Of a DNA stretch of 37,730 bases, positions 23,606-37,730 are shown in pieces. Numbering within the stretch: position 1 is the stretch's first letter; the number at the start of each line of letters is the position of its first letter. The translations under genes and the position numbers were made by a program. Origin of the DNA: an uncultured Elusimicrobia bacterium (GTDB lineage: Bacteria; Elusimicrobiota; Elusimicrobia; Elusimicrobiales; UBA9959); contig CAISZM010000087.1 of assembly GCA_903889965.1 (NCBI GenBank), positions 1 to 37,730 on the forward strand, in the 5' to 3' direction. The notes beneath the pieces are model-generated. The model ran no database searches and had not been told where the DNA came from. It saw only the letters and a program-made list of their open reading frames with translations.

Positions 23606-23896
23606 TTATTCCAGGACGAATTTGAGCCAGGGCAGGGCCGCGCGGGCCGCTTCGAGGGCGGCCTCGGGGGAATCAAAGCCGGCGGCCGGACCTACCCGGC
23701 CCGGCTCCCAGCACATCTCCAGCAGCTTGTCGTTATAAACCTCTTCCTGGAAAGTATAGGTGCCGTTCACGCGGTGATAGATACCCATGCGCAGCTTGCC
23801 CCCGGTATCGTAGACGGTACGCACCACGGCGTCGACATCGATGTTCTCGACCGAACCGAACAGCGCGAACAGCCCCCGCCGGATATTTTTCAGCAT
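23606..23896 (-). CDS. Small hypothetical protein
   Basis: The 96-residue protein has no family I recognise. The N-terminus is basic and hydrophobic (MLKNIRRGLFALFG), followed by a mixed soluble part with GIYHRVNGTYTFQEEVYND and an Ala-rich C-terminal helix ending in PWLKFVLE. ATG 23896 is chosen because GAGG lies nine bases upstream; a TTG at 23911 is an alternative. It lies between the dehydrogenase (31 bases upstream) and the SGNH lipoprotein (6 bases downstream), in one operon. Confidence 0.65.
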   Translation of the reverse strand: MLKNIRRGLFALFGSVENIDVDAVVRTVYDTGGKLRMGIYHRVNGTYTFQEEVYNDKLLEMCWEPGRVGPAAGFDSPEAALEAARAALPWLKFVLE

Positions 23897-23927
23897 ACGC
23901 GCACGCCTCAACCCGTTCGCCGACCAG

Positions 23928-25037
23928 CTAATAGGTGTCCAGCTTATCGAACTCCGAAGTTTTCTTCCTCTCCAGCAGGTGCGCCATGTCCCGGCTGAAG
24001 GCGAAAGGGCCCTTGGGCCAGCCGAAGGCCAGCTTCATGGCCGTTTCTATATCGTACTCCGACGCCATTATTTCAGAGGCCAGTATTTTGGCCTCCTCCA
24101 CCACCGGGCGCATTATCTCCGCGAAGATATCTTCCTTGGGGGTTTTCTTAAGCCCCAGGTATTTCACGATGTTGGGCAATATGGGGTTCTCCCCCACTAT
24201 TAGCCCGTCCTCGTATATATAAAAGCCCCGCATGGCCTTGCGGCCCAGCTGCCCGTACTGTACCAGCCGCAATTGCGTGGCCGAAGGCGCCAGCCTTTCC
24301 GGCTTCCCGAGCGCGGCATAGATGGCCTGCGAAGCGTCATAATCCGCGTCCAGGCCGGCGGAATCCACCATTTCGAAAGGCCCGGCCGGGGCTTGCGCCA
24401 CTTCGCGGAAAGCCCCGTCTATATCGTGCGGGGAGCCCCTCCCGGATTCAAGCAGCTTGAAAGCCGCCAGCACAAAAGGCCTGGCAAGGCGCTCCACTAT
24501 CTGCCCCGGGTTGTCCTTTACGATAACCGGTGTCTTGCCTATCTTGCGCAGGAGGTCGGCCGCGGCGGTTATATATTCGTCACCGGTCTGGTCGGTCCGC
24601 ACCAGTTCCACCAGCGGGTTCGTCCGCACCGGGGTCATGAAGTGAAAACCCAGCGTACGCTCTTTGGGAAAATCGGAGTACTCCATCGCCTCCTTCAGGG
24701 GATGCACCGAACACCCGGCCGCCAGCACGCAGCGCTCCCCGAGATACTGCCTGAGCTTGGAGAAATAAATCTTGCGTTCTTCAGCCGATTTGGAATCGGC
24801 CTCTATAACTATATCGGCTCCCGCGAACTTTGACAGGTCCTGTATACCCTCTATATTGGCCAGCAGCTTGTCCGTCCCCGCCTGGCGCAGCGACCAGGAG
24901 ATCTTAGCCAGCGACACGTCCAGGCCGTCTTTGGAGTCGTTGTATACGCGCACCTGGAAGCCGTTTTTCAGGAAGACCTCGGCCATGGCGCAGCCCGCGG
25001 CATTAGCGCCCATTATCCCTATCGCCTGTATTTCCAT
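23928..25037 (-). CDS. 3-hydroxyacyl-CoA dehydrogenase-like protein
   Basis: The 369-residue protein has the layout of the FadB/PaaH dehydrogenases: a Rossmann NAD domain (about 1-180) and two helical C-terminal 3HCDH domains (about 185-280 and 290-369). These enzymes oxidise 3-hydroxyacyl-CoA to 3-ketoacyl-CoA in beta-oxidation or related routes. The catalytic His is present (H132 in GFHFMTPV), as is the partner Glu (E144 in LVELV). The usual Asn of HFFNP is Thr (T135), and the dinucleotide loop reads GIMGANAAG instead of GxGxMGxGIA. Substrate or cofactor use may therefore differ. GGAG lies seven bases before the ATG. No thiolase or hydratase is nearby. Confidence 0.85.
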   Translation of the reverse strand: MEIQAIGIMGANAAGCAMAEVFLKNGFQVRVYNDSKDGLDVSLAKISWSLRQAGTDKLLANIEGIQDLSKFAGADIVIEADSKSAEERKIYFSKLRQYLGERCVLAAGCSVHPLKEAMEYSDFPKERTLGFHFMTPVRTNPLVELVRTDQTGDEYITAAADLLRKIGKTPVIVKDNPGQIVERLARPFVLAAFKLLESGRGSPHDIDGAFREVAQAPAGPFEMVDSAGLDADYDASQAIYAALGKPERLAPSATQLRLVQYGQLGRKAMRGFYIYEDGLIVGENPILPNIVKYLGLKKTPKEDIFAEIMRPVVEEAKILASEIMASEYDIETAMKLAFGWPKGPFAFSRDMAHLLERKKTSEFDKLDTY

Positions 25038-25087
25038 TTTTCGCTCCGGATCCGGATTACCGTTAACCCCGTGACTTGTGATTTTAA

Positions 25088-26641
25088 CTACGCCACCCGC
25101 ACTTCCTCAAGCCTGACTATCCCGTCCTTGCTGAGAACGATGCGTATGCGCTCGTAGTTGACGGCGCACTGCCCGTCCCTGTTGGAATAAGTGTATTTCA
25201 GAACCAGGTTGAGGTGATAGACGCGCGAGCACTGCGCCACGCGCAGGTCGCCGGTGTCCGCGTCGACATAAGGGTAGTCCACCGCCGCGTCGTCGGCCTG
25301 GGCGATGAGCTCGCGGATGTTGAAGCGCATTATATCGTTGAGGTCGCGGCGCCGCTCGTGGCTTTTTATGATGACCTCGGGATAAAGAACGATCACTTTC
25401 TTGTACTTGAATACGCGCTCAGGCTTGCCTTCCTCGTCCACGGAGGTTATATTATCCACGCGGCGCATGCGTGCGATATCCGGCGGGATGTCGCGGTCGG
25501 ACAGGAAGGTAAAAGCCTCCTTCAGTACGCCCAGGCGCCCGCCTCCTCCCGAAAAATCCAGTATATCTATCTTGCGGTCGGAGATCCAGCGGGTAAGGCT
25601 CTTGGAGAAGAGCATCTTAAGCCAGTCCTTTATGCGGTCCTTGAAAACGTAGCTTATCACCACGGCCAGAACGAAAGGCATGCTGTTTATGGCGTAACGG
25701 CTCTGCACCAGGAGCGTGACCAGCACAGTAAAGAGCATGGCCGCGCCCGCCGCCACTCCGAAGAAGACCTGCGTAAGGGTCTCCCACTCGGAGAACTCGG
25801 CCTTCAGGTAAAGCACGCTGGAGATAAATTTCTTCAGCACCCCGCGGCGGTAGATTATCTCTTCGTTGGTGGAGCCAGGCACCAGCACAGACGGGTATTT
25901 CATGGCCTGGCGGTAGCGGCTTTGGGCCGTAGCTATGGCGGTAACCCCGGTTTCCACGTCAGCGAACCTGGCGCGCGCGCCGGGGTTCGAGCGCAGGGCC
26001 TCCAGGAGCGAGGTCAGGTACTCCTCCAGGATAAGGCTGACGTACTCGTCGAAGAAGGCGGCGGTTTCGCGTATCTTGACCGGCACGGCCGGGTCCGAGA
26101 TCTCGGCCTTAAGCGAGGAAAGGGCGGTCTCAAGGTTCTTCAGGTCGGACAAAAAGTTTTCCAGGCCCTCGCCGACGAACAGCTTCCGCTGCGCCGACGG
26201 CACCGCCGAACCGTAGGTGGCCAGCCCCTCTACGAAGATCTTGACGTAATCCCTTATCTCGCCGCGTATGATGCAGCCCAGAAGGCGCAGCTCGTTGCAG
26301 ATGTTTATGGTGAGCGCCTGATCGCCGGCGCCCGAAAGCACTTTGGAGAGGTTCTCGCGCACGCGGTTGAGCGGCGAGGTTTTAAGCGACGGGTCGCACA
26401 CCTTGCCGAGGCTCATCTTGGGGGTGCGGAACCTTATATAGCGCTGGCTGGAGTTATAGAATTTCTCCTTGTTATAGCTGTGCGGGCCCACGTTAAGCGC
26501 GCGCGGCACGAAAAAGTAAGTTTCCACCTCGTAGGAACTTTTCGCGGCGGCGTCCAGGTCTATATCCAGCTTTATCTCGAAGCGGTGCTTGTCGTGGAGT
26601 TTTATGCGGGAATCCAGAATATCGTTTTGGTCTTCGATCAT
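25088..26641 (-). CDS. Hypothetical membrane protein with two TM helices
   Basis: The 517-residue protein is not one I can assign. It has a soluble N-terminal part of about 285 residues with a beta-rich start (HRFEIKLDIDLD, YEVETYFFVPRALN) and helical middle. Two adjacent membrane helices follow (about 291-312 and 318-333), then a soluble C-terminal part of about 180 residues with VIVLYPEVIIKSHERRRDLNDIMRFNI. No signal peptide is seen, so both large parts probably face the cytoplasm with a hairpin in the membrane. The start at 26641 has no Shine-Dalgarno sequence; an AAAGGAG further up (about 26695) has no in-frame start codon near it. It lies 158 bases after xerD. Confidence 0.75.
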   Translation of the reverse strand: MIEDQNDILDSRIKLHDKHRFEIKLDIDLDAAAKSSYEVETYFFVPRALNVGPHSYNKEKFYNSSQRYIRFRTPKMSLGKVCDPSLKTSPLNRVRENLSKVLSGAGDQALTINICNELRLLGCIIRGEIRDYVKIFVEGLATYGSAVPSAQRKLFVGEGLENFLSDLKNLETALSSLKAEISDPAVPVKIRETAAFFDEYVSLILEEYLTSLLEALRSNPGARARFADVETGVTAIATAQSRYRQAMKYPSVLVPGSTNEEIIYRRGVLKKFISSVLYLKAEFSEWETLTQVFFGVAAGAAMLFTVLVTLLVQSRYAINSMPFVLAVVISYVFKDRIKDWLKMLFSKSLTRWISDRKIDILDFSGGGGRLGVLKEAFTFLSDRDIPPDIARMRRVDNITSVDEEGKPERVFKYKKVIVLYPEVIIKSHERRRDLNDIMRFNIRELIAQADDAAVDYPYVDADTGDLRVAQCSRVYHLNLVLKYTYSNRDGQCAVNYERIRIVLSKDGIVRLEEVRVA

Positions 26642-26799
26642 ACGGGTGGCGCGAAAGCGCGGGCGCTGGGACAGATCAGCCGCCGGCGATGTCTCCTTTA
26701 TATTCCGACGTAATTAAAACGCATCTCTGTAACGATACAGGCCAAATCATATAAATTTCAAATTCCCGCGGCCAGCCCCTTCCGGGCGGTTCCCCCCGC

Positions 26800-27687
26800 T
26801 TACTTGTCCGGATGGTATTTGTCGTGCGCGCGCTTTATCCCGCCCTTGTCCACGTGGGCGTATATCTGCGTGGTATTGAGGCTGGCGTGGCCCAGCATCT
26901 CCTGCACCGAACGGAGGTCGGCGCCGCCCTGCACCAGGTGGCTGGCGAAGGTGTGCCTGAACAAATGGGGATGCGGTTTTATCTCCACCCCCGCCTCCCC
27001 GCCGAAAGCCACAATATCCTTCCACATCTGCACGCGGCTGAGCTTTTTGCCCGAGCGGTTAAGGAACAGCTCGTCCGCCACGGCCCGCCCCCCGAACTTC
27101 CGCTGCCTGGAGGCCAGGTACTCCTTAAGGCGGGAAAGGGCCGCCGCGTTCACCGGCACCATACGCTCCTTCGAGCCCTTCCCGAAAACGCGCAGCCAGC
27201 CCTGCTGAAAATTTACGGACTCAAGCCGCAGGCCCAGCAGTTCCGACACCCGTATGCCGGAGGCGTAAAGCAGCTCCACCGCGGCCGAGGCCCGCACCTT
27301 GGCGAACGCATCCCCCGCCGGGTAGGCCAGGAGCTTCGCCATGTCGGACAAAGCCATATAGCGCGGCACCTTGCGCGGCAGCCTTGGGGCGCGGAAATTG
27401 GCCGTCGGGTCTTTTTGGGACTTCCCCTCAAGGCGCAGGTAGCGGTAAAAAGCCCGCAGAGCCTCGGTCTTGCGGAAGATGGAGGCCGGCCCCAGGCCCT
27501 TCTCTTTTTTCAAAGACCAAAGGTAGGCTTCCACAAAAACGGCCTCCGCCAGAGCGGGGTCCGTTTTGCGGGCCTCGCAATAAGCCAGGAAAGCCCCGAC
27601 ATCCCCGGAGTAGGCCAGGCAGGTGTTCTTAGCCAGGCCCCGCTCCATGCCGAGATGCCTTGAGAAATCCGCCGCAAGAGCGCGCAT
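26800..27687 (-). CDS. xerD: Tyrosine recombinase XerC/XerD
   Basis: The 295-residue site-specific recombinase is expected to resolve chromosome dimers at dif. It has an N-terminal SAM-like core-binding domain (about 1-90) and a catalytic domain with every active-site residue of the family: Arg in ASGIRVSELLGL, Lys in GKGSKER, His-x-x-Arg in HLFRHTFASHL, His in LGHASLNTTQIY and the nucleophile Tyr in IYAHV. Length is typical of Xer. It starts eight bases after the recA stop without its own ribosome-binding site, so it is probably translationally coupled to recA. It belongs to the core set, not to a visible mobile element. Confidence 0.92.
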   Translation of the reverse strand: MRALAADFSRHLGMERGLAKNTCLAYSGDVGAFLAYCEARKTDPALAEAVFVEAYLWSLKKEKGLGPASIFRKTEALRAFYRYLRLEGKSQKDPTANFRAPRLPRKVPRYMALSDMAKLLAYPAGDAFAKVRASAAVELLYASGIRVSELLGLRLESVNFQQGWLRVFGKGSKERMVPVNAAALSRLKEYLASRQRKFGGRAVADELFLNRSGKKLSRVQMWKDIVAFGGEAGVEIKPHPHLFRHTFASHLVQGGADLRSVQEMLGHASLNTTQIYAHVDKGGIKRAHDKYHPDK

Positions 27688-27695
27688 CGGTATGC

Positions 27696-28808
27696 CTATT
27701 TCTTCGCCGATCTTTCCTTGCGTTCAGCCTTTTGTGCGCTGAATATTTTCGCTTCGTTCAGGTCCGCAGCCTTTTCAGCCGCGGCTTTTTCGGAACCTGC
27801 CGTGGGTTTAAGCCCCGGTAGCAGGAAGCGGCTGCGCAGTTCCTTTTCTATCTCCGCGGCTTTGTCCTTATTGGCTTTTAAATAGGCCTTCGCGTTCTCG
27901 CGGCCCTGCCCCATGCGCTCGGTCTTGTAGATGAACCAGGTGCCGGATTTTTCCAGCAGGCCGGTTTCCACGCCCATGTCCAGCAGGCAGCCCTCGGACG
28001 AGATGCCCTCGCCGTTGACCATCTCGAACTCCGCCTGGCGGTAAGGGGGCGCCACCTTGTTCTTAACCACCTTAACCCGTATGCGGGCGCCGGTCACCAC
28101 GTCGGCCTGCTTTATGGTCTCTATCTTGCGTATATCCAGGCGCACGGAGGAATAGAACTTCAGCGCCAGGCCGCCGGGAGTTGTTTCCGGGTTGCCGAAC
28201 ATAACGCCTATCTTGTGGCGCAGCTGGTTGATGAACATCACCGACGTCTTGGTGGAGGACACGATGGAGGTAAGCTTCCTGAGCGCCTGGCTCATCAGCC
28301 TGGCCTGCAGCCCCACGTGCATGTCGCCCATTTCGCCTTCTATTTCAGCCTTGGGCACCAGCGCCGCAACGGAGTCTACCACGATAAGGTCCAGCGCGCC
28401 GGAGCGCACCAGTTTCTCGGTTATCTCCAGGGCCTGTTCGCCGCTGTCGGGCTGGGAAATAAGCAGGTCGTCTATATTCACGCCCAACTTCTGCGCGTAG
28501 ATGGGGTCCAGCGCGTGCTCGGCGTCTATGAAGGCCGCCATGCCGCCCATTTTCTGGGCCTCCGCTATAACATGCAGCATCAGGGTGGTTTTGCCGGAAG
28601 CTTCAGGCCCGAAAATTTCTATTACGCGGCCGCGCGGCAGCCCGCCCACGCCCAGCGCCAGGTCCAGCGACAGCGCGCCGGTGGGGATCACCTCTATCTT
28701 CATGCGGGCCGAGCGCTCGCCCAGCTTCATAATGGCTTCCTTGCCGTAGCTTTTTTCTATCTGCGAAAGGGCGGCATCCAGGGCCCTGTTTTTTTCGTCA
28801 CTCGCCAT
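27696..28808 (-). CDS. recA: Recombinase RecA
   Basis: The 370-residue ATP-dependent strand-exchange protein handles homologous recombination and SOS activation. It has the Walker A motif GPEASGKTT (67-75), [22 protein letters not shown] (Walker B and loop L1 region), [22 protein letters not shown] (loop L2) and [14 protein letters not shown]. The C-terminus is Lys/Glu/Ala-rich and somewhat longer than average. GGAGG lies eight bases before the ATG. I see no convincing LexA box in the 60 bases upstream, though the LexA motif of this lineage is not known to me. Confidence 0.98.
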
Positions 28809-29150
28809 AAATAAAACCTCCGTTCTGAAATGTTTACGCTTTTACAACAATAGTCTACAACACCAACCGGACAGCGTAGTGTCGCGTTGATACCAGCAAT
28901 TTTAACCTTTTTGGGGCTAAAATCCTACATTATGTTAACATATTTAAAAAACACGGTCCAAACCCGCCATTCTCCCGCGCTGACCGCCCGCGGGACCGGC
29001 AAAAAGGTGCGGTATATCTCAATATATTCGACTTTTCAGGGCGTTAAAATTACCCGGAAAACATTGCACAACGGAACCTGAAGGGACTTTATAGCGGCAG
29101 GGGATAATTTGTAGGATTAAACAGGGATCTCCATATTAAAGGAAATATAA
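28809..29150. other. Divergent intergenic region, recA / beta-barrel gene
   Basis: This 342-base region is AT-richer than its surroundings. It should hold the recA promoter (minus strand, about 28840-28875) and the promoter of the barrel gene. For the latter, TTGCAC (29064-29069) and TTATAG (29089-29094) are 19 bases apart, and GATAAT lies at 29103-29108; none is strong. AAAGGAAA precedes ATG 29151. A 64-codon open frame at 28887-29081 has no ribosome-binding site and looks spurious. Confidence 0.4.
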
Positions 29151-29936
29151 ATGAAATTTTTACTGTTCCTCTTTACACTGGCCGCTGTCCTGCCGGTCTC
29201 GGCCTCAGCGGCGACCATAAGGATAATAACTCCTTATATAGGCACCTTGGCCAGCGAGTATTCGGGGAACGGCATCAGCTTAAAGGATACGGGGGAGATG
29301 GACGGCCTGTACGCCCAGTGGATAAACACCGACAAATTCCAGGCCAACGGCTTCTACTACCGCGCCCCTGACGTCAGCTACAGCCTGATAAGCGGCATGC
29401 ACCTGAACTTCGACTACTACATTAAACCGTCGAAGAGCGGGAAATACGTAGTAGGCGCGGGTTTCGAGGACATAAACATAGACATGTCCGCCGGAACGCA
29501 CATAGCCGGGCTCAATTCGTTCGACATGAACAATGACGTGCGCTTCTATTTCCTGCGCGCCGGTCGGTACTTCTATTATAAAACCGGCGCACTGGACGCC
29601 TCCCTGCTGCCCTATGCCGGCTATGCGCATGAAGCGATAAGCGGCGATATCCATATGGATGTGGCCGGCCCCCCTCCGCCGATGACGGTGGATATATCCG
29701 ATACCGACAACCACCCCCTTGCCGGCATTAACCTGGAACTGACTTTCGCTCATTTTATAAGCGTGCAGGGCAAGTGGATGGGCAGGTTTAAAAAGCACGA
29801 GACACTGAACGATTACTCGCTGATGGCGAACCTGTTCCTCACCCGCCACTGGGGCCTCTCCTATCGCTACAAATACATGGAGTACGGCTCCTCCTCGGAC
29901 CGCTATAACTTGGCCGGGCTCACCTACTGTTTCTAG
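29151..29936 (+). CDS. Predicted outer-membrane beta-barrel protein
   Basis: The 261-residue protein has a signal peptide (MKFLLFLFTLAAVLPVSASA). The mature part is made of alternating polar and aromatic residues in short strands (for example YFLRAGRYFYYKTGA, SVQGKWMGRFKKHE, GLSYRYKYMEYGS) separated by Gly/Asp/Ser turns. It ends in an aromatic C-terminal residue (LTYCF), as expected for BAM-assembled barrels. About eight to ten strands would fit. No specific family is recognised. AAGGAAA lies seven bases before the ATG, and a terminator follows, so it is transcribed alone. Confidence 0.75.
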   Translation: MKFLLFLFTLAAVLPVSASAATIRIITPYIGTLASEYSGNGISLKDTGEMDGLYAQWINTDKFQANGFYYRAPDVSYSLISGMHLNFDYYIKPSKSGKYVVGAGFEDINIDMSAGTHIAGLNSFDMNNDVRFYFLRAGRYFYYKTGALDASLLPYAGYAHEAISGDIHMDVAGPPPPMTVDISDTDNHPLAGINLELTFAHFISVQGKWMGRFKKHETLNDYSLMANLFLTRHWGLSYRYKYMEYGSSSDRYNLAGLTYCF

Positions 29937-29958
29937 CCGCGCCCATTCATCAAACGGA

Positions 29959-29991
29959 AGCCGGACAGGCCGCAAGCCTTCCGGCTTTTTT
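29959..29991 (+). terminator. Terminator of the beta-barrel gene
   Basis: AGCCGGA-c-AGGC pairs with GCCT-TCCGGCT around a CGCAA loop and is followed by T6. This is a textbook intrinsic terminator. Confidence 0.92.
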
Positions 29992-30087
29992 ACGGCTTTA
30001 AAATATAGTATCCTGAAATCGGGTTAGGGGGACGGCAAAAAAGCTTTCCTTTCTAGACTCTTTGGTCAAAAAGACAAGGGGGATGTT

Positions 30088-31242
30088 ATGCTTTTAATGA
30101 AAAAAGAGGAGTTCAAAGAACTGTTAAGCGAAAAAACCGGCCCGTGCGTCTCTATCTTCATGCCGACGATAAAGAGCAGCGAGGAGACGAAGCAGAACCC
30201 GATAAGGTTCCGCAAGCTCCTGCGCGAGGCCGCCGTAAAACTGAAGGTCTACGGGCTCAAGCCGGCCGAGGCGGAAGAATTACTGGCGCCCACGCAGCAG
30301 CTGCTGGAGAACCACATATTCTGGCGGCACCAAAGCGGCGGGCTGGCAGTTTTCCTGTCGAAGAAACTCAACCGGGCCTACACGCTGCCGCTGAACTTCA
30401 ACGAAATGGCGCTGGTAGCCGGCCGTTTCTGCGTAACCCCCGTCCTGCCGCTTTTCGCCGAAGACGGGATGTTCTTCGTGCTGGAGCTCAGCCAGCGCTC
30501 GGTCAAGCTCTACCATTGCAGCAGGTACAGCGTCACCGAAGCGGACCTGAGCCAGGTGCCCAAAAGCGTGGCCGATCTGCTGGAACTTAACCCCAGGGAA
30601 AAGCAGCTGCAGTTCCACTCCAGCGGCGAGGGGCGCGCCGCCGGGCGCGGCGGGACATCCACGTTCCACGGGCGCGCCGAGGACACCGACGAGGACAAAG
30701 ATAATATCCTGGAGTATTTCCACAGCGTGAACAGGGGAATAGGCTCCATAATGGGGTCTTCCGGCTGCCCGCTGGTGCTGGCGGGGGTGGATTATCTCAC
30801 CCGCATATACGAGAAAGCCAACACCTATAAAAACCTGCGCGGCAGGATAAGCGGCGGGGCCAGCGGCCTAAGGCCGGAAGAGCTCAGGGAAATGGGCTGG
30901 GAGCTGGTAAAGCCTGTCTTCGAGGCCGGCAAGCGCGCGGCGCTGGGGCAATTCGAGCAGCTGGCCGGCACGCCCCTGGCCTCGAACCACCTCAAGACCA
31001 TACTCGCCGCGGCCGAGGAGGGCAGGGTGGCCACACTTCTGGTCTCGTCCAGAGCGCAGAGATGGGGTTTTTTCGACGAAGCCTCCGGGATCATCGACCT
31101 GCATAAAAAGCCGGAACTTTCGGACACCGAGCTGCTGGACCTGTGCGCCGTGCGCACGCTGGACCACGGCGGGCAGGTGCACGTGCTGGAGCAGGACAGT
31201 ATGCCCGGCAAGGCCCCCGCCGCTGCCGTATTCAGGTACTGA
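30088..31242 (+). CDS. baeRF family 3-like protein (bacterial archaeo-eukaryotic release-factor fold)
   Basis: The 384-residue protein resembles the bacterial proteins related to archaeal/eukaryal eRF1 (baeRF group, family 3 type). Visible parts are the N-terminal CVSIFMPT...QNPIRFRKLL, GLAVFLSKKL, the middle VLELSQRSVKLYHCSR, a Gly-rich loop with STFHGRAEDTDEDKDNILEYFHSVNRGIG, and PLVLAGVDYLTRIYEKANTY. No GGQ peptide-release motif is present at the matching loop. These proteins are thought to act in ribosome rescue or stress, but the role is not established. AAGGGGG lies about six bases before the ATG. It has a terminator on each side. Confidence 0.8.
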   Translation: MLLMKKEEFKELLSEKTGPCVSIFMPTIKSSEETKQNPIRFRKLLREAAVKLKVYGLKPAEAEELLAPTQQLLENHIFWRHQSGGLAVFLSKKLNRAYTLPLNFNEMALVAGRFCVTPVLPLFAEDGMFFVLELSQRSVKLYHCSRYSVTEADLSQVPKSVADLLELNPREKQLQFHSSGEGRAAGRGGTSTFHGRAEDTDEDKDNILEYFHSVNRGIGSIMGSSGCPLVLAGVDYLTRIYEKANTYKNLRGRISGGASGLRPEELREMGWELVKPVFEAGKRAALGQFEQLAGTPLASNHLKTILAAAEEGRVATLLVSSRAQRWGFFDEASGIIDLHKKPELSDTELLDLCAVRTLDHGGQVHVLEQDSMPGKAPAAAVFRY

Positions 31243-31730: not shown

Positions 31731-31854
31731 TGACTGGAGGGCAGGGTTCTTCAGGCACGCGGCGGCCACACCGTGGCCGCGCTCCGCACTCGGCCACCGG
31801 GCTTATGCAACCGGCGGCCTCCGCGAGGGCCTTCAGAACCCTGCCCTCCAGTCA
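31731..31854. repeat. Perfect 20-bp inverted repeat enclosing two hairpins
   Basis: The arms 31731-31750 and 31835-31854 are perfect inverted copies. Pairing can continue outward through CGGG/CCCG after a 3-base bulge. Between them are a perfect 8-pair hairpin (31762-31769 with 31773-31780) and a 9-pair hairpin with one mismatch (31792-31800 with 31811-31819). The whole would fold as a three-way junction. There is no open frame or U-tract after it. It lies in a 434-base gap between the SWIB gene and rsmH, and may be a structured RNA, a DNA cruciform or a small non-coding mobile element. Confidence 0.7.
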
Positions 31855-32068
31855 CCCGCTCCACTTATGATTTTAACAGCGGGGCCCCCTCCCCAAAGCG
31901 GCCGTCTGATACGCATAGCGCCTGGGTGGAGCAAAGCGACACAATTCAGCGAACATTACGGCACAAGATAGCGTCTGATGACACATTGCAAGCGTAGTCC
32001 GCATGCGCAAGCATTGGCTCCAGAGCAACCCCATGTCCGCCCCTTTAAATCTTTTTCAACTTTAACTT
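31855..32068 (+). other. Upstream region of rsmH
   Basis: This is non-coding sequence of mixed composition. A short direct repeat (GTCTGAT at about 31904 and 31973) is the only other structure I see. The last 30 bases before the rsmH ATG are pyrimidine- and AT-rich (TTTAAAT near 32044), with no Shine-Dalgarno sequence and no strong -10. Confidence 0.35.
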
Positions 32069-33133
32069 ATGCCCGAAGAAGCCCCCCAGGAACCACCCCA
32101 TAAGCGGCGCGTCCGCTACAGCGGCAGGAACCCGCGCAGTTTTTCCGAAAAATACAAGGAACTGGACCCGGCCAAATACGCCGGCGAAGCGGCCCATATT
32201 ATCGCCAAGGGCGGCACGCCGGCCGGCACGCACCGCCCTATCTGCGTGGACGAGATCCTGTCCGTACTGGCCCCTAAACCCGGGGAAGTATGCTTTGACG
32301 CCACCCTTGGCTACGGCGGCCACGCGGAACAGATACTGCCGCGCCTGCTGCCCGGAGGAAAACTCTTCGCGGTCGACGTGGACACGGCCGAACTGCCGCG
32401 CACCGAGGCCCGCCTGCGGGCGCTGGGTTTTAAGGACGCCCTGGTCATCCGCCGCATGAATTTTGCCGGTATTATGGGTCTTCTGCCGGAAGCCGGAGGA
32501 GGCTTCGACTGTATCCTGGCGGACCTGGGAGTTTCATCCATGCAGCTGGACAACCCGGAGCGCGGCTTCACCCACAAGGCCGACGGCCCGCTGGACCTGC
32601 GCCTTAACCCGGCGCGCGGCGCCCCGGCCTCGGAACTGATAAAGACCGTAACCTTAGCCGGATTGACCAGGCTGCTTGAGGACAACGCGGACGAGCCGCG
32701 CGCGGCTATCATAGCCCGCGCGATAAAAGGGGCTCAACTGCCCATAAGGACAACGGCGGAACTTGCCGCTTTAGTGAGGTCGGCCATTAAAGACATAGCG
32801 CCCAAAGAGACGGAAGAGGCGGTAAAAAAGTCGCTGCAGCGGACTTTCATGGCGCTGCGCATTGAAGTGAACGGGGAGTTCAGCGCGCTCGACCGTTTCC
32901 TGGAGGCGCTGCCCTGGTGCCTTAAGCCGGGAGGGCGGGTGGCCATCCTGTCGTTCCATTCGGGCGAGGACCGCAGGGTAAAAAAAGCTTTCGCCAAAGG
33001 CGAGGCGGCCGGGATATACTCGGGAGCGGCGCCCGGCCCGCAGCGCCCCTCACCTGCCGAACGCCGTTCGAACCCGCGCTCCTGCTGCGCCAAGCTGCGC
33101 TGGGCCATACGCTCCGCGACCCCCGCGCAGTAG
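32069..33133 (+). CDS. rsmH: 16S rRNA (cytosine1402-N4)-methyltransferase
   Basis: The 354-residue SAM-dependent enzyme (formerly MraW) methylates C1402 of 16S rRNA. Family motifs are THRPICVDEIL, the SAM loop DATLGYGGHAEQIL, DCILADLGVSSMQLDNPERGFTHKADGPLDLR, LQRTFMALRIEVNGE and GGRVAILSFHSGEDRRVK. It has about 55 extra residues before the domain. RsmH normally lies in the dcw cluster with mraZ, ftsL and ftsI; here it stands alone. The ATG at 32069 has no clear ribosome-binding site. The 3' end (from 33077) is duplicated at 37480-37536. Confidence 0.95.
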   Translation: MPEEAPQEPPHKRRVRYSGRNPRSFSEKYKELDPAKYAGEAAHIIAKGGTPAGTHRPICVDEILSVLAPKPGEVCFDATLGYGGHAEQILPRLLPGGKLFAVDVDTAELPRTEARLRALGFKDALVIRRMNFAGIMGLLPEAGGGFDCILADLGVSSMQLDNPERGFTHKADGPLDLRLNPARGAPASELIKTVTLAGLTRLLEDNADEPRAAIIARAIKGAQLPIRTTAELAALVRSAIKDIAPKETEEAVKKSLQRTFMALRIEVNGEFSALDRFLEALPWCLKPGGRVAILSFHSGEDRRVKKAFAKGEAAGIYSGAAPGPQRPSPAERRSNPRSCCAKLRWAIRSATPAQ

Positions 33134-33148
33134 TCAGTCCTGCCGCAA

Positions 33149-33181
33149 AAAAAGGCCGCGGGGAAACCCCGCGGCCTTTTT
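33149..33181 (+). terminator. Terminator of rsmH (bidirectional)
   Basis: AAAAAGGCCGCGGGG pairs perfectly with CCCCGCGGCCTTTTT around an AAA loop. A degraded copy lies at about 37556-37592 in the duplicated segment. Confidence 0.93.
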
Positions 33182-33198
33182 CATCCCCGCTATCGAGG

Positions 33199-33285
33199 CT
33201 AATTTTTTCAGCGGGCACTTCCCCTCAACGCGGGCCGCCTTATCCCGGGCGGGCGGAGCAATTAGTTTGCGTCAACCCTGTTACC
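33199..33285 (-). pseudogene. Decayed tail of a Cys-rich protein gene
   Basis: On the minus strand, AGGGGAAG-TGCCCGCTGAAAAAAT-TAGCC lines up with the last codons of the intact gene at 37610-37730 (AGGGGAAGGTGTGCGCTG then ATAAAATAAGCC). Two bases are missing, giving a frameshift, and the stop codon is lost. Weaker likeness (CCCGG, CAATT) continues upstream. It looks like a non-functional relic left by the duplication at the island boundary. The match was made by eye over a short stretch. Confidence 0.4.
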
Positions 33286-33299
33286 GTCTATTTTACGGC

Positions 33300-33953
33300 T
33301 CAGTAAGGATTGTGCAGATAAGACAGAACACGCAAAATTCCATCAGCTTCCTGGGCGATCAGTATCCTGTGCGTAAACTCGCCGTCTTCCTGAGGATCAT
33401 GTGAAGCCATTTGAATACCCACAAACCGATTCGCGCCCAGAAACGCCTTCTCGGCGGCGGCGGCCACTTCATTTATATTTTTAGATATAACTGCGTTTAC
33501 GTGGCTATTATCATTGCTGACGGCTTCTTTGGCCTCGCTCCTTAAGTCTTTTGCAAATGTGCTTACAGCAGAGACTCCGGAATACATTCTGAAATAATGC
33601 GGATACTCCGAACCTATAGAGGACGGATTACTGCAATCAAGAGCGTCAGCGAATATCACATTCAATTTCGTGTTAGCCGGATAACTGGTTATTGCAAAAA
33701 AATAGCCATATCCCTGAAGTGTGCGGCTTTGAGAAGCGATAACCGCGTTGATAGGGTCCAGGATATTATCCGCGTAGGAGGCCCGCTCCACCGTGTCAGG
33801 CACGCCAGCGCTGACCGGAACCGGAATTGCTATGTCTTCAACGCTAATCAGAGATGATGCGGCGGATTCCAGGGATCCGCGCGCCGTATCCGATGCTAAC
33901 GCATTACCGGTGAACGATATCGAGGCTGCAACCAAAAACACTATTCTATTCAT
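33300..33953 (-). CDS. Exported hypothetical protein, island protein 1
   Basis: The 217-residue protein has a signal peptide (MNRIVFLVAASISFTGNALA). After it comes SLESAASSLISVEDIAIPVP, a weak match to the segment shared by the other island proteins. The rest (DPINAVIASQSRTLQGYGYF, a Ser/Tyr-rich middle, a helical Ala-rich part and GEFTHRILIAQEADGILRVL) matches no family I know. EFTH also occurs in the next gene's product. AGGAGG lies eight bases before the ATG. Codon choice is more AT-rich than in the genes left of 33 kb. Confidence 0.8.
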   Translation of the reverse strand: MNRIVFLVAASISFTGNALASDTARGSLESAASSLISVEDIAIPVPVSAGVPDTVERASYADNILDPINAVIASQSRTLQGYGYFFAITSYPANTKLNVIFADALDCSNPSSIGSEYPHYFRMYSGVSAVSTFAKDLRSEAKEAVSNDNSHVNAVISKNINEVAAAAEKAFLGANRFVGIQMASHDPQEDGEFTHRILIAQEADGILRVLSYLHNPY

Positions 33954-33989
33954 AACATATCCTCCTTAATCAGCTTATCGCCGCTTTTG

Positions 33990-33997
33990 CTTTGTCC
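33990..33997 (-). promoter_or_regulatory. Shared GGACAAAG element, copy 1
   Basis: On the minus strand GTCTCTTTACAGGACAAAGC (core GGACAAAG at 33990-33997) lies 37 bases before the start of island gene 1. An almost identical block precedes island gene 4, and a shorter one precedes island gene 3. The function is unknown; TTTACA just upstream could also serve as a -35. Confidence 0.45.
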
Positions 33998-34071
33998 TGT
34001 AAAGAGACTAGTAAGACTCACGGGCCTATTGCCGCTCAAATCATTTGTCTTTATGCGCTGCGGCACAGTCC

Positions 34072-34698
34072 TTATTGCGCGCGCTTGCAATTTAACGCTT
34101 TATACGCCTTATCGATACTGATAAAATTGGCTGATGAGTGTGAATATAGCGCCAGGCCTGAACTCTCTTGCCGGATAAGCGAGTCGCTAAGATAGACGCC
34201 GTTAGTTTCCCCCAGAACCGAAGCCTCATCAGTGTCGCCGATATGCAAGAACCTCTTGCCGGAGTAATTCACCCCGTCACTCCCGAAGCTGCCGGGGCCG
34301 GGCCTCATTGACATAAGCGGCGTGTCCCCGATACTGATATCCTTCAGGATCGACGCATCCCAGTTGCCTGCTGAGTTATGAAGGACGAATGACACCCTGT
34401 TCCCGGAGAGGAAACTATGCGTAAACTCAACCTTATACTGGATCACCGCGTTGGCGTCACCGGATACCGAAGTGCAGATATATTCCGCGTCGCCGAAAGC
34501 AGCGGAAGCTTTATCCGCCGGTTCCTTCGCGGTACCGGGCATATCCGCCTCATCAGCCCCGGAAACTCCAGGCACAACCGTTTCGCTCAGGACTGTGGGA
34601 GAAACGGAAGTGTTTAACGAGTCTACAGAGGATTCTCCGGCATAAGAAATACCAGATCCGAATAAAACCGCCGCCGCCGCGTATATTAAGCTTTTCAT
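34072..34698 (-). CDS. Exported hypothetical protein, island protein 2
   Basis: The 208-residue protein has a signal peptide (MKSLIYAAAAVLFGSGISYA) followed by SVDSLNTSVSPTVLSETVVP. That segment is nearly the same as in the FGE-fold island protein (ALDSLKTSVQPSVLSETAVP). The C-terminal 150 residues are beta-rich with many Ser/Gly (ICTSVSGDANAVIQYKVEFTH, SFVLHNSAGNW) and end in NCKRAQ. Two Cys, one near each end of this part, could form a disulfide. The ATG at 34698 has GGAGGAG upstream; a TTG further up is not needed. It starts 70 bases after island protein 3, in one operon. Confidence 0.8.
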   Translation of the reverse strand: MKSLIYAAAAVLFGSGISYAGESSVDSLNTSVSPTVLSETVVPGVSGADEADMPGTAKEPADKASAAFGDAEYICTSVSGDANAVIQYKVEFTHSFLSGNRVSFVLHNSAGNWDASILKDISIGDTPLMSMRPGPGSFGSDGVNYSGKRFLHIGDTDEASVLGETNGVYLSDSLIRQESSGLALYSHSSANFISIDKAYKALNCKRAQ

Positions 34699-34768
34699 AA
34701 GCTGATCTCCTCCAGAAGATTTAGCACACAAAACCCGGGGGGTTCACGCATTCAGCCCGGAAGCGCAA

Positions 34769-35359
34769 CTACCGTTGCTCCGTACACTTCTCGCTAAAGT
34801 CAGCGCAGGACCAGAACAGGCGTTTAATGCAGTTCCTGACCTTAACCATGGCGGTACCTGGCGCCACGCCGTCTCTTGTGATCACGATAGAACCGTCCGA
34901 TCTCTCGGCCGGGGTAAAGCCAAAACCATAACTTGCGGGAGCATAATTTGAAAACTCTCCGCGTTCCCCTTCGTTTCCGCTATAGGTGATCTTGAATGTT
35001 TGGCTGGCGGTATCATTAGTGTAAACGGCAAAAAGGTTACCGTTCTCTCCCTGTCTTACCTTATAACCGCAAGATGCGCCGTTTTCGGCAACTCCGGAAG
35101 CCTGAAAAACTATCTGGGAGTCGTAATCCTTTGCCTGGGACAGATCTTTGCCAGCATCCTTTACATCGGATCCCGTTGGCATATCTGCCGCTGCGGTAAC
35201 CTCCGGCATTGCGGCTTTCGTCCCGGCTGCTGGAACTGCCGAAACCGGTTCACTTATTTCAGGCCCAATGGATACGCCGAGCTGCTCAGCGGCGGACTGA
35301 GCGCCGGCGATCGTCACGCCTGAGATCATAAATATCGCGACAAATAAGACATCCTTCAT
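34769..35359 (-). CDS. Exported hypothetical protein, island protein 3
   Basis: The 196-residue protein has a signal peptide (MKDVLFVAIFMISGVTIAGA) and then AEQLGVSIGPEISEPVSAVP, a looser version of the shared segment, followed by an Ala/Pro/Thr linker. The C-terminal part (IVFQASGVAENGASCGYKVR, VYTNDTASQTFKITYSGNEG, a Gly/Tyr-rich strand and four Cys in all) may have the same fold as island protein 2. No family is recognised. ATG 35359 follows GGAGG at a normal distance; the ATG at 35383 lies upstream of that site. It starts 57 bases after the FGE-fold gene. Confidence 0.8.
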   Translation of the reverse strand: MKDVLFVAIFMISGVTIAGAQSAAEQLGVSIGPEISEPVSAVPAAGTKAAMPEVTAAADMPTGSDVKDAGKDLSQAKDYDSQIVFQASGVAENGASCGYKVRQGENGNLFAVYTNDTASQTFKITYSGNEGERGEFSNYAPASYGFGFTPAERSDGSIVITRDGVAPGTAMVKVRNCIKRLFWSCADFSEKCTEQR

Positions 35360-35391
35360 ATTTACAAACCTCCATTCTTTCATTGTTTTTA

Positions 35392-35399
35392 CTTTGTCC
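35392..35399 (-). promoter_or_regulatory. Shared GGACAAAG element, copy 2
   Basis: The core GGACAAAG recurs 33 bases before the start of island gene 3, in the context AACGGGACAAAGT. Only the core is shared with the other two copies. Confidence 0.35.
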
Positions 35400-35416
35400 C
35401 GTTTAACCCTTATGGA

Positions 35417-36346
35417 TCAACGGGACCTGGCAAGGCGGATCCCGTTGATGTATGTTTGTGAAAAAGCCACATTTTGTGAGCGGTGATCGGCCCGTGAATT
35501 AAGAGCGCCATCGTACATAAAGGCGCCGCCGCGCAGCACCCTGGGGCTGCCGCCTTCATCAAAGGCACTGCCATCTACAGGCGCGCCCTCATAAGAATCC
35601 CGATAGCTGTCCTGCACCCATTGCAGTACGTTTCCCGCCATATCGCACAAACCCTGCGCTGTATTTCCGGCGGGTTTCGAACACACCGGCCATGTAGACT
35701 CTTTACCGCAACCCCAGCCGCTTGCGCTGAAAAAACCGCTTTTGCCGTACATTACAGCTTTGTCGCAGGACGGCTCTTCGTTGCCCCAAGGGTATTTCTG
35801 ATCCTTACCGCCGCTCGTAGCCGCATACTCCCATTCGGCCTCGCTGGGCAATCTGCTTTCCATAAACTTTGCGTACTGATTGGCCTGATACCAACTCACG
35901 CAATTAACCGGATGGAACCGGCGGCCGGGCTGCCAATAATTGCAATATCGTTCCACCTCGGGAAACTCCGCTTTGTGCGGCGCGTCGCATTTGCCTTTGT
36001 TAACGCACTCCGCATATTGTTCGACAGTTACCGCCGTTTTTGACATTTCAAATGTTTTGACGGCGACTTCGCGGATCGGCTTGGCATCTTTAAAACTTTT
36101 TCCGGGGTCGTCAGTCCCCATCATAAACTTTCCGCCGTTGATGACCACCCACTCGACCGGGGCTTTCGGCGCAGACACAGCGGGATCATCCGCCGCGATA
36201 TGCCACTTGGAAACTTCGGGAACCGCAGTCTCACTTAGAACTGAAGGCTGAACGGAAGTTTTTAATGAATCAAGAGCGGACTCTTCCGCGTAAGAAATAT
36301 TGACGCCTAACAAAACCGCTGCTATCGCGTAGATGGAACCTTTCAC
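35417..36346 (-). CDS. Exported FGE-fold (SUMF1-like) protein, island protein 4
   Basis: The 309-residue protein starts at a GTG with GGAG six bases upstream; more upstream start codons would place the signal peptide 15 residues inside. The signal peptide (MKGSIYAIAAVLLGVNISYA) is followed by the shared segment ALDSLKTSVQPSVLSETAVP. From about residue 60 an FGE-sulfatase domain runs to the end: WVVINGGKFMMGTDDPGKSF, TAVTVEQYAECVNKGKCD, HPVNCVSWYQANQYAKFMES, RLPSEAEWEYAATSGG, MAGNVLQWVQDSY and VLRGGAF. The catalytic Cys pair of true FGE is absent near the end. Several other Cys suggest disulfides. It is the first gene of the four-gene minus-strand operon. Confidence 0.88.
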   Translation of the reverse strand: MKGSIYAIAAVLLGVNISYAEESALDSLKTSVQPSVLSETAVPEVSKWHIAADDPAVSAPKAPVEWVVINGGKFMMGTDDPGKSFKDAKPIREVAVKTFEMSKTAVTVEQYAECVNKGKCDAPHKAEFPEVERYCNYWQPGRRFHPVNCVSWYQANQYAKFMESRLPSEAEWEYAATSGGKDQKYPWGNEEPSCDKAVMYGKSGFFSASGWGCGKESTWPVCSKPAGNTAQGLCDMAGNVLQWVQDSYRDSYEGAPVDGSAFDEGGSPRVLRGGAFMYDGALNSRADHRSQNVAFSQTYINGIRLARSR

Positions 36347-36430
36347 GGTAATCTCCTTAAACTTAATATTTTTCCTCTCCGTCATGATCACTGATATACT
36401 GATTCTTTCTTACCTTGTTCTCCGCTCTCG

Positions 36431-36438
36431 CTTTGTCC
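36431..36438 (-). promoter_or_regulatory. Shared GGACAAAG element, copy 3
   Basis: The block GTCTCTTTCAGGACAAAGC lies 85 bases before the GTG of island gene 4. It differs from copy 1 by one missing base across 19-20 positions. Confidence 0.45.
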
Positions 36439-36489
36439 TGAAAGAGACCCGCAAACCCTCACATAACCTTATGAGATAGTTTACTCCTC

Positions 36490-36589
36490 CCGCCGGTTAA
36501 TCACATGAGGCCAAAGTCTTAAGCGGTCTTGTTTTTTGACTCAGGAGCGGCGGTCCAACAAAACCGCCTTTCGTTAGACCGCCGGTTGA
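36490..36589 (+). promoter_or_regulatory. Candidate operator cluster in front of the HTH gene
   Basis: Arms 36548-36559 and 36573-36584 form an inverted repeat (CGGCGGTCCAAC and GTTAGACCGCCG, one mismatch in 12). GCGGTC half-sites recur at 36523, 36550 and, inverted, 36577. CGCCGGTT occurs at 36491 and 36580. The cluster lies between the divergent island operon and the HTH gene and touches the HTH promoter, so autoregulation and control of both sides are plausible. Confidence 0.5.
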
Positions 36590-36595
36590 ACTGTT

Positions 36596-36604
36596 TGGTA
36601 TACT
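36596..36604 (+). promoter_or_regulatory. Extended -10 promoter of the HTH gene (leaderless)
   Basis: TGG followed by TATACT (36599-36604) forms an extended -10. Six bases separate it from the ATG at 36611, so the mRNA should start at the start codon. No Shine-Dalgarno sequence is present. Confidence 0.65.
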
Positions 36605-36610
36605 GGGAAC

Positions 36611-37474
36611 ATGGCCACTAAAATAAATATTTTCGGCAGTGTGCTGTCCAGGATACGCAAAGAGCAGGGCTACCCAAGCGCGTATCAGTTCTTCAAGAGC
36701 GTCGGCGGGAGTAAAACTATCGGCATCTCGTTCGGGAGCTACTGGGACCTTGAGCGCGGGAAGAAACTGCCCAAGAGCTGGCGGCTAAAGGCGATCATGT
36801 CCGCTCTGGATGTTGGCCAATACTCTCCAAAGGCCCAGGAACTTGTCCGGGCTTATTTCAAGGAACTTTCAGGCTCCGATGAACTCCTTCAGATATTGTC
36901 GGGTCCGCCCGCCGCCAGAGGCAACCTTACCAGCAGCGAACTGACTGAAACCGCTATCGAGCAGGCGCTCAAGCAGCGCCGCGTCAATATGACGCTGGAA
37001 CAATGGAAAATATTTGGCAGGGATGCGGTGACGCACATATGCCAGTACTTCCTGGTTAACACGGCCGGCTGGGTCACGGTCCGGGAATTGTCTGACACGA
37101 CCAAATTTAAGGAGGAAGAGATAAGGAAAGCGCTTGGAATCCTGGCTAACGGGGGGTTGGTCGAGTTTTCCAAAGATAAAGCGCGCAGCCTGTTTCAGAA
37201 CAAAGTGGTCCCGATGCTGGCTCTAACGCCCGAAACGGCGGCGATCCATGCCAGGCAGCGCAAATTATGGAGTATGTGGCTGGCAGATTGCAAAACTTAT
37301 GCCGCAAAAAGAACGACCGTCCGCATGACCAAAGAAAACATGGAGATATACCGCCAGCAGCTGGAGAAAACCGTTGCCATGTGCGCCGTCTATGAAAATA
37401 TGGAAGCGAACAGGCAGGACTCGGCCATCTATTGTGTTGAATCGCGTGTATATCAGATCCTTCCAAAGGAATGA
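36611..37474 (+). CDS. HTH transcriptional regulator, possibly TIGR02147/DUF4423-like
   Basis: The 287-residue protein opens with an XRE-like DNA-binding region (about 8-60: SVLSRIRKEQGYPSAYQFFK and SYWDLERGKKLPKSWRLKAI). A winged-helix-like part follows (about 125-200: VTVRELSDTTKFKEEEIRKALGI, ANGGLVEF) and then a helical C-terminal part ending in SRVYQILPKE. The general layout and the VYQI end recall the TIGR02147/DUF4423 group, but I am not sure of this. It is divergent from the four-gene operon for exported proteins and is the only regulator in the island, so it probably controls that operon. Its stop lies five bases before the duplicated rsmH tail. Confidence 0.75.
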   Translation: MATKINIFGSVLSRIRKEQGYPSAYQFFKSVGGSKTIGISFGSYWDLERGKKLPKSWRLKAIMSALDVGQYSPKAQELVRAYFKELSGSDELLQILSGPPAARGNLTSSELTETAIEQALKQRRVNMTLEQWKIFGRDAVTHICQYFLVNTAGWVTVRELSDTTKFKEEEIRKALGILANGGLVEFSKDKARSLFQNKVVPMLALTPETAAIHARQRKLWSMWLADCKTYAAKRTTVRMTKENMEIYRQQLEKTVAMCAVYENMEANRQDSAIYCVESRVYQILPKE

Positions 37475-37479
37475 ATTAA

Positions 37480-37536
37480 CGCTCCTGCTGCGCCAAGCTG
37501 CGCCGGGCCGTACGCTCCTCCGCCCCGGCCCGATAG
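37480..37536 (+). pseudogene. Fragment of rsmH 3' end (duplicated)
   Basis: The fragment encodes RSCCAKLRRAVRSSAPAR and a TAG stop. It matches the last 18 codons of rsmH (RSCCAKLRWAIRSATPAQ) with no insertions or deletions. Of the first 39 bases only two differ. It has no start and no upstream part of the gene. The in-frame, mostly conservative differences suggest it comes from another rsmH allele or decayed slowly after a duplication. It marks the right boundary of the island. Confidence 0.85.
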
Positions 37537-37609
37537 CATTCCCTCCGTCCTCCGGCAAAAAAGGCCGCGGGGATGACCCCGGCGGCCCTGTTTCGCCCCG
37601 CTGCCCGGC

Positions 37610-37730
37610 TTATTTTATCAGCGCACACCTTCCCCTGTCACAAAACACCTTCTCTTCTCCGGGAGGCCCGGGACAGTCATAAACGCACTGGGGGCAATTG
37701 GCCTTGGCGTAGTAGACCTCGATCTTATCC
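37610..37730 (-). CDS. Cys-rich protein, C-terminal end (partial)
   Basis: An open frame on the minus strand enters from the right edge and ends at the TAA at 37610-37612. The visible 39 residues contain NCPQCVYDCPGPPGEE and VFCDRGRCALIK, with five Cys in a pattern (CxxC, C, C, C) typical of small metal-binding or disulfide-rich ends. No family can be named from this fragment. The gene converges on rsmH in the presumed ancestral order. Confidence 0.6.
   Translation of the reverse strand, partial: DKIEVYYAKANCPQCVYDCPGPPGEEKVFCDRGRCALIK

Follow-up and report, generated by a model that had tools for sequence, protein, structure and literature searches.

Duplication of a gene end beside newly acquired DNA has been described in Escherichia coli, where, in the account given of the recombinants, 56 of 60 Lac− isolates yielded the polymerase chain reaction (PCR) product of a homologous gene-end duplication and the 14 duplications sequenced spanned 109–950 bp (PMC3240628). 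The authors explain the duplications by a single crossover involving a circular plasmid molecule whose homologous end had been partly lost, probably through degradation followed by re-circularisation, and they give the classic product of homology-facilitated illegitimate recombination (HFIR) as an insertion plus a deletion with homology at one end only (PMC3240628). In a survey of small variable segments of bacterial genomes, 10–18% are given as repeat-flanked (PMC2884548). Here we analysed a window of 37,730 bases, the entire contig CAISZM010000087.1 (C87) of an uncultured Elusimicrobia bacterium whose draft genome comprises 2.24 Mb in 87 contigs and is 90% complete. The window ends within a gene for a cysteine-rich (Cys-rich) secreted protein, and towards this end the 3′ end of rsmH, its terminator and the tail of the convergent Cys-rich gene occur twice in direct order around an island of five genes. 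The locus belongs to a known kind of event, of which it and two further gene ends of this genome are new members.

The last 57 nt of rsmH (33077–33133) recur at 37480–37536 in the same frame and at equal distance to the stop codon, with two differences in the first 39 nt, as a preliminary description of the window had stated; the identity over the 57 nt is 84%. The repeat contains 18 rsmH codons and the stop codon, then a bidirectional terminator and, from the convergent Cys-rich gene, its final codons. One gapped local alignment joins 33077–33225 to 37480–37636 (149/157 bp, ~77% identity) and scores 80, with 300 dinucleotide shuffles reaching 27 at most. From the stop codon onward the alignment scores 49 against a shuffle maximum of 18, and the last 40 nt, past the terminator, score 21 against 19, which is weak alone and collinear with the rest. 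This bears out the suggestion that the terminator and the Cys-rich tail are duplicated too, and the likeness does not stop after 60 bases, an outcome that had been named as contradicting an insertion.

Each copy completes a different gene. The left copy completes rsmH, on which PF01795 spans residues 54–346, while only a tail of rsmH is present on the right; the right copy completes the Cys-rich gene, whose end is intact there and decayed on the left, as first described. The left terminator, with a perfect stem and both U-runs, is positioned to serve rsmH and island gene 1, and the right terminator has lost the U-run toward rsmH and retained the one toward the Cys-rich gene. DNA was added without breaking either neighbour, the flanking repeats being direct and each flanking gene present once in full. 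The five genes between the copies are AT-richer, in agreement with the original observation, with a GC content of 51–53% compared with 59% ahead of the copies.

Comparison with 60 genomes, 31 of them from the same genus, gave an indication of the origin of the duplication. The source genome has two RsmH homologues, and the one encoded in the window has an additional N-terminal part and is a paralogue at genus level, present beside the canonical one in 24 of the 31 genus members (69–76% identity); the canonical RsmH of this genome (G000 C11:34308–35165) is 36% identical to it. All 24 loci were taken into the comparison, and in four of them the contig ends within 3 kb downstream. The tryptophan of CAKLRW is kept in the left copy and in all 24 relatives and is an arginine in the right copy, whereas the valine of most relatives is retained in the right copy and is an isoleucine in the left, indicating that both copies have changed since the duplication. 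A cysteine (RSCC) is found in both window copies where the relatives have alanine or serine. Over 39 nt the two copies are 95% alike, compared with at most 90% for either copy against any of the 24 relatives, so the duplication was born in this lineage or acquired from a very close one.

The same scar was observed elsewhere in the genome. A self-repeat scan covered 1.16 Mb (the window, contig C50 and the first ≤20 kb of 80 other contigs, with five contigs outside) and considered repeat pairs of 60–400 nt, after which copies at gene 3′ ends were filtered and inspected by eye. Brackets at gene 3′ ends were obtained on C87, C59 and C32, and these three are the yield of the 3′-end filter and of sorting by eye rather than a full count for the genome. 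On C59, an amidohydrolase gene (PF01979) has 169 bp of its 3′ end duplicated at 96%, and the 1.1-kb insert thus enclosed carries a single gene, the product of which has a signal-peptide-like start; the displaced copy, with frame-breaking indels, lies 3 bp past the end of the convergent gene. On C32, 154 bp at the end of a zincin-like peptidase gene (PF06262), extending to 165–173 bp, are repeated at 82% around a 5.2-kb insert with GNAT, LolA-like, FtsX and ABC transporter genes. At both loci the stop codon marks the beginning of the homology, the displaced tail directly adjoins the convergent gene, the far copy lies in the intact gene and the insert is AT-richer than its surroundings (57 versus 60% GC on C59 and 56 versus 60% on C32). 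The three scars differ in their degree of decay. In a control scan of 600 kb of E. coli K-12, we obtained three direct and four inverted pairs, the direct ones being the argQ–argV tRNA cluster, the neighbours yhiJ/yhiL and an intergenic pair after yhhI and after pitA; no gene-tail bracket was seen there by annotated coordinates, the 3′-end filter not being applied. The e14 region, used as a positive control, returned the icd bracket (216 bp at 87%). This one distant genome serves as a yardstick and not as a rate.

Empty sites for C59 and C32 were searched for in 36 relatives, including 22 of the 31 genus members. The C59 gene pair is convergent and insert-free in G010, with ~120 bp between the genes; both genes were found at five of the 21 loci viewed, and at the four loci other than that of G010 they are 0.86–1.15 kb apart. 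The C32 pair, for which one close orthologue was found, is insert-free in G021, with overlapping ends. The gene gap of 3 bp on C59 compares with ~120 bp in G010, and C32 shows no loss against G021. The rsmH locus is supported as the trace of an insertion after which each flanking gene has one good copy and one decayed tail, as had been proposed from the start, and these insert-free relatives add support by analogy. The C59 cargo protein has no Pfam match; three paralogues (36–46% identity) lie close together on C41 (L216 6119–10856) and none in the relatives' loci compared.

As the best explanation for these scars we favour, with a probability of about one half, single-crossover integration of circularised DNA that carried a short gene-end piece. 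The duplication, the direction of its decay, the AT-richer cargo and the recurrence at two more gene ends, each with an insert-free relative, are observed; the circular intermediate, the single crossover and the donor are what we infer. A circular molecule would have combined the cargo with ~150 bp of the rsmH–terminator–Cys junction from a close relative, and a single crossover between chromosome and circle would place the cargo between two directly ordered copies of the gene end. Each flanking gene would stay whole in one copy, and its second, free tail would then decay. A dedicated recombinase would not be required, and because the events that survive would be those sparing both genes and both terminators, scars would gather at convergent gene ends. 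The continuous direct duplication, the two further brackets, the lack of shared insert ends and the lack of a recombinase match were counted in favour of this capture, for which the E. coli recombinants are the best and a direct precedent (PMC3240628). For the three inserts, comparison of the 120-nt ends gave only low scores for shared ends and terminal inverted or direct repeats (12–20, with no shuffle control), and the transposon hallmarks of terminal inverted repeats and a transposase were not seen. Pfam finds no integrase or transposase among the five island genes, consistent with the first description, three of these genes having no convincing family; nor does any cargo gene scanned (the five island genes, C59 and C32) match a recombinase family, a result that is weak for the several genes matching no family at all. 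Of the two mechanisms originally offered, homologous capture fits better, and use of the rsmH end as an attachment site is not supported.

Several points weigh against the single crossover. Neither circle, donor nor population variant has been seen. The identity of 77–96% between copies blurs the breakpoints, and copies identical at birth (break repair) are indistinguishable from donor-derived ones. The excess of direct over inverted pairs in the self-comparison (32 to 1) is partly due to repeated gene families, from which many of the direct pairs come, and is not specific evidence. An empty site, with rsmH followed directly by the Cys-rich gene, was to be looked for in relatives according to the first description and was found in 0 of 24, the Cys-rich gene not being found there. 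In addition, the three duplications are alike in length (149–173 bp), which hints at a fixed-length process that random circularisation does not predict. With regard to the classic HFIR product, all three loci are marked by duplication and not by deletion, although for the rsmH locus the lack of an empty site leaves a deletion beyond assessment.

The missing empty site would be explained if the rsmH–Cys junction is, as it appears, private to this lineage. At E 1e-4, neither the island genes nor the Cys-rich gene was found in the 24 rsmH stretches of the relatives. The 39-aa Cys-rich tail, compared with 61 genomes, gave strong matches only to this contig and C50 (next E 0.009); the search with the full Cys-rich protein covered the rsmH and regulator stretches of relatives alone. 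It had been stated that the insertion would be contradicted if the relatives all carried the same five genes here with no empty-site genome; no empty-site genome was found, yet the five genes are missing from this place in the relatives too.

The similar lengths of the three duplications agree with a different origin, in which a double-strand break with long staggered ends received the insert, or a template switch occurred ~150 bp behind a break, giving a long target-site duplication without donor homology. This origin would also suit the unrelated target genes, the inserts without common ends and the terminal GNAT gene of the C32 insert, which stops inside the displaced tail as if randomly cut. 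Set against this are the other lengths in weaker cases of relatives (103 bp in G023 and 89 bp in G009), and we regard such a break as unlikely, if the most serious competitor to single-crossover capture.

An attachment site at the rsmH 3′ end, dedicated or shared, was rejected. None of the 24 relatives has a second rsmH tail within the stretch searched (downstream up to 12 kb or to the chaN-like gene, with the four short contigs as above), the scores being 20–35 compared with 22–39 for the best of 10 simple shuffles and 130 for the window under the same scoring. In the present genome the scar lies at three unrelated gene ends. The chaN-like gene is downstream of rsmH in 9 of the 24 loci, 2.6 to 9.2 kb away, with varied genes between.

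A tyrosine recombinase acting in trans, site-specific for gene 3′ ends and with the element bringing a replacement end, would yield the same architecture as the e14/icd bracket recovered in our control, in which icdC is the annotated remnant, and the genome has four PF00589 genes by profile scan, none of them within the inserts. We nevertheless consider it improbable, given three different target genes, no shared insert ends, no integrase recognised in the inserts and no relative with a second rsmH tail. Moreover, the PF00589 gene of the window adjoins a recA-like gene, as do its 85–87% identical counterparts in the three relatives compared, and it therefore looks like a housekeeping Xer. Of the features of the e14/icd type, duplication of the target 3′ end at both edges was found here, while an integrase inside and reuse of the site in relatives were not. 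Genes that we take to be eRF1-like and recA, together with xer (PF00589 by profile), lie upstream of rsmH in the window (23624–31239, ahead of SWIB–rsmH) and downstream of it in several relatives; the rsmH neighbourhood of this genome is evidently locally rearranged. The window RsmH is ~50% identical to RsmH on Agathobacter and Acetoanaerobium records in a plasmid collection.

Tandem duplications are common in bacteria, and an old tandem duplication of the rsmH–Cys segment would leave remnants in an identical order if its middle was later replaced by accessory genes, the redundancy acting as a safe landing pad. Two events would be needed at each of three loci, each leaving ~150 bp, and in the relatives that lack the C59 and C32 inserts the gene pairs occur with no duplicate, which makes this course rather improbable. 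A diversity-generating retroelement was set aside because rsmH is an implausible target and the copies on C59 have 96% identity and contain indels.

The last 99 bases of the window are identical to positions 123–221 of C50, which was taken as the continuation of the chromosome on the basis of this exact overlap; the assignment is supported by homologues of C50 genes that follow rsmH in the same order in several relatives. C50 carries the Cys-rich gene, a tetratricopeptide repeat (TPR) protein gene, a gene that we presume to be chaN and others. Its first 122 bases match nothing else in the assembly, resemble by eye a fragment of a LuxR-type regulator (LuxR-HTH, where HTH stands for helix-turn-helix) and are probably a chimeric contig end. 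This end, together with the termination of the window contig at the junction, could be taken to mean that two strain versions of the junction were joined in one contig, and the longest exact run between the C59 copies, 100 nt, is near the apparent k of 99, leaving C59 in want of long-read confirmation. Such an artefact is very hard to credit: the copies share at most 24 exact bases in the window and 14 on C32, too short to join at a k near 99, and the right copy of the window is decayed while the left is not.

Direct repeats elsewhere were rejected as brackets: pilin paralogues (C70 and the start of C32), paralogous or repetitive genes (C36, C41, C42 and C66, those of C41 being paralogues), dispersed intergenic repeats (C9 and C13) and promoter-like repeats (C62). 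The repeats inspected were those of C9, C13, C14, C36, C41, C42, C62, C66, C70 and the start of C32, those of C1, C11, C28, C47 and C61 not being viewed one by one; the C14 repeat was assigned to none of the above classes. Two weaker candidate brackets in relatives were left out of the bracket count. In G023, another species, a peptidase gene end and terminator downstream of rsmH are repeated on C9 (L044 reverse complement 5774–5876 and 14362–14462; 103 bp), and of the 8.5 kb enclosed the first 4 kb are AT-richer. In G009, an 89-nt in-frame coding fragment of a neighbour gene is repeated at 89% ~9 kb away on C15 (L170 184–272 and 9415–9503), the copies flanking a regulator and secreted-gene module.

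The island consists of an HTH regulator gene, weakly DUF4423-like, and genes for four predicted secreted proteins (Table 1).

Table 1 Coordinates of features around the duplicated junction in the window
Feature	Position	Strand	Evidence
rsmH-like methyltransferase gene, whole; last 57 nt in left repeat copy	32069..33133	+	PF01795 E 1.3e-62, TIGR00006
Left junction copy: rsmH tail, terminator, decayed Cys-rich gene tail	33077..33225	+	alignment to 37480-37636
Left bidirectional terminator, perfect 15-bp stem, U-run on both sides	33149..33181	.	
Island gene 1, 217 aa; starts like a signal peptide; matches no family convincingly; four relatives have partial homologues (38-43%)	33300..33953	-	
Island gene 2, 208 aa; starts like a signal peptide; matches no family convincingly; N-terminal segment in common with island gene 4	34072..34698	-	
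Island gene 3, 196 aa, signal-peptide-like start, no family	34769..35359	-	
Island gene 4, secreted FGE-sulfatase (formylglycine-generating-enzyme fold) protein; GTG start picked by eye	35417..36346	-	PF03781 E 6.9e-49
Putative divergent promoter region: degenerate palindrome (consensus ~GTTAAGCC-n3-GGCTTAAC), CCGCTCCTGRGTCAAAAAAC, TAAACT box	36473..36610	.	alignment with 18 regulator loci of relatives
Island gene 5, 287-aa HTH regulator; stop 5 bp ahead of right repeat copy	36611..37474	+	weak PF14394 (DUF4423) E 1.3e-4, under curated cut-off
Right junction copy: rsmH tail remnant, terminator, functional Cys-rich gene end	37480..37636	+	alignment to left copy
Right terminator, bulged stem; U-run left only for - strand gene	37558..37596	.	
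Cys-rich secreted protein gene, 3′ end; goes on in contig C50 (99-bp exact overlap, C50 123-221)	37610..37730	-	

Twelve of the 60 further genomes, all belonging to the genus, have homologues of the regulator (E ≤1e-60), some of them several, with identities of up to 61% over the full length; a regulator on CAIXBR010000099.1 of an uncultured Elusimicrobia bacterium is 61% identical. We presume the family to be the one named TIGR02147, which NCBIfam did not report, and a literature search by this name alone found no paper. In 17 of 20 regulator loci, the closest gene called upstream is transcribed divergently (the exceptions being L157, L161 and L162), and many of these divergent genes have a signal-peptide-like start by eye. 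Most of the 18 loci aligned share a degenerate palindrome, a CCGCTCCTGGGTCAAAAAAC-like block and a TAAACT-like box upstream of the regulator, L156 and L162 being left out of the 20 and L161, L166 and L170 fitting poorly. On G003 C99 the layout is that of the window, with an FGE-domain gene divergent from the regulator. These features suggest that the regulator controls the secreted genes through 36473–36610. Regulator and secreted-protein modules of this type are common in the genus and lie at unrelated loci. The signal peptide and N-terminal segment of island gene 2 recur in island gene 4 at 61%, and six relatives have similar segments (32–60%), some of which begin, or lie within, far longer open frames.

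Some further features were seen around the island. Direct repeats touching the regulator upstream region recur elsewhere in some of the loci L151–L170. An AGGACAAAGCnARAGC element precedes three of the four secreted genes (33978–34002, 35380–35404 and 36419–36443; two exact and one degenerate), and its exact matches among 171 loci are only in those of this contig. A long palindromic intergenic stretch lies at 31731–31854, and ~31860–32035 resembles by eye the dispersed repeats on C9 and C13, which could be a family of the repetitive extragenic palindromic (REP) or miniature inverted-repeat transposable element (MITE) kind. A search of 33000–37730 against Rfam gave nothing over the gathering score.

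How small accessory blocks enter without an integrase or transposon is often left open, and the three scars show one solution, in which the neighbour's end is duplicated and both genes stay whole. The signature, a 100–200 bp copy of a gene 3′ end a few kb away in direct order, can be searched for in any genome. In an uncultured genus, the cargo reveals a recurrent regulator and secreted-protein module whose divergent promoter region is conserved. As a speculation that we hold to be a long shot, the scars might reflect recombinase-free cassette traffic: circles of gene end plus cargo would enter convergent junctions via that end, could exit by recombination between the copies and would spread secreted-protein modules with their own regulator without harm to host genes, the near-constant 150–170 bp marking a dedicated processing step.

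Among known systems, the E. coli duplications are similar in that DNA was added beside a gene end and part of that end (109–950 bp) was doubled, with no dedicated integrase in the account given (PMC3240628). They differ in that the account concerns a laboratory plasmid with a lacZ end, whereas the scars described here are old and surround natural islands of 1.1–5.2 kb at convergent gene ends. Prophage e14, which lies in icd of E. coli K-12, likewise doubles a gene 3′ end in direct order (216 bp, 87%), leaving the tail as the pseudogene icdC, but it spans 15 kb and has annotated integrase and excisionase genes, none of which was recognised in the present inserts. In the displacement of effector and Rhs 3′ ends, as outlined in PMC5361080, a module also enters at a gene end and the old 3′ end is shifted and retained; there the new module is of other function and an HFIR-like event is proposed, whereas here the same tail is restored. 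The variable segments surveyed in PMC2884548 are small islands at fixed backbone positions too, some between direct repeats, but most of the repeats reported there (66–94%) are shorter than 30 bp, compared with ~150–170 bp at the gene ends of this genome.

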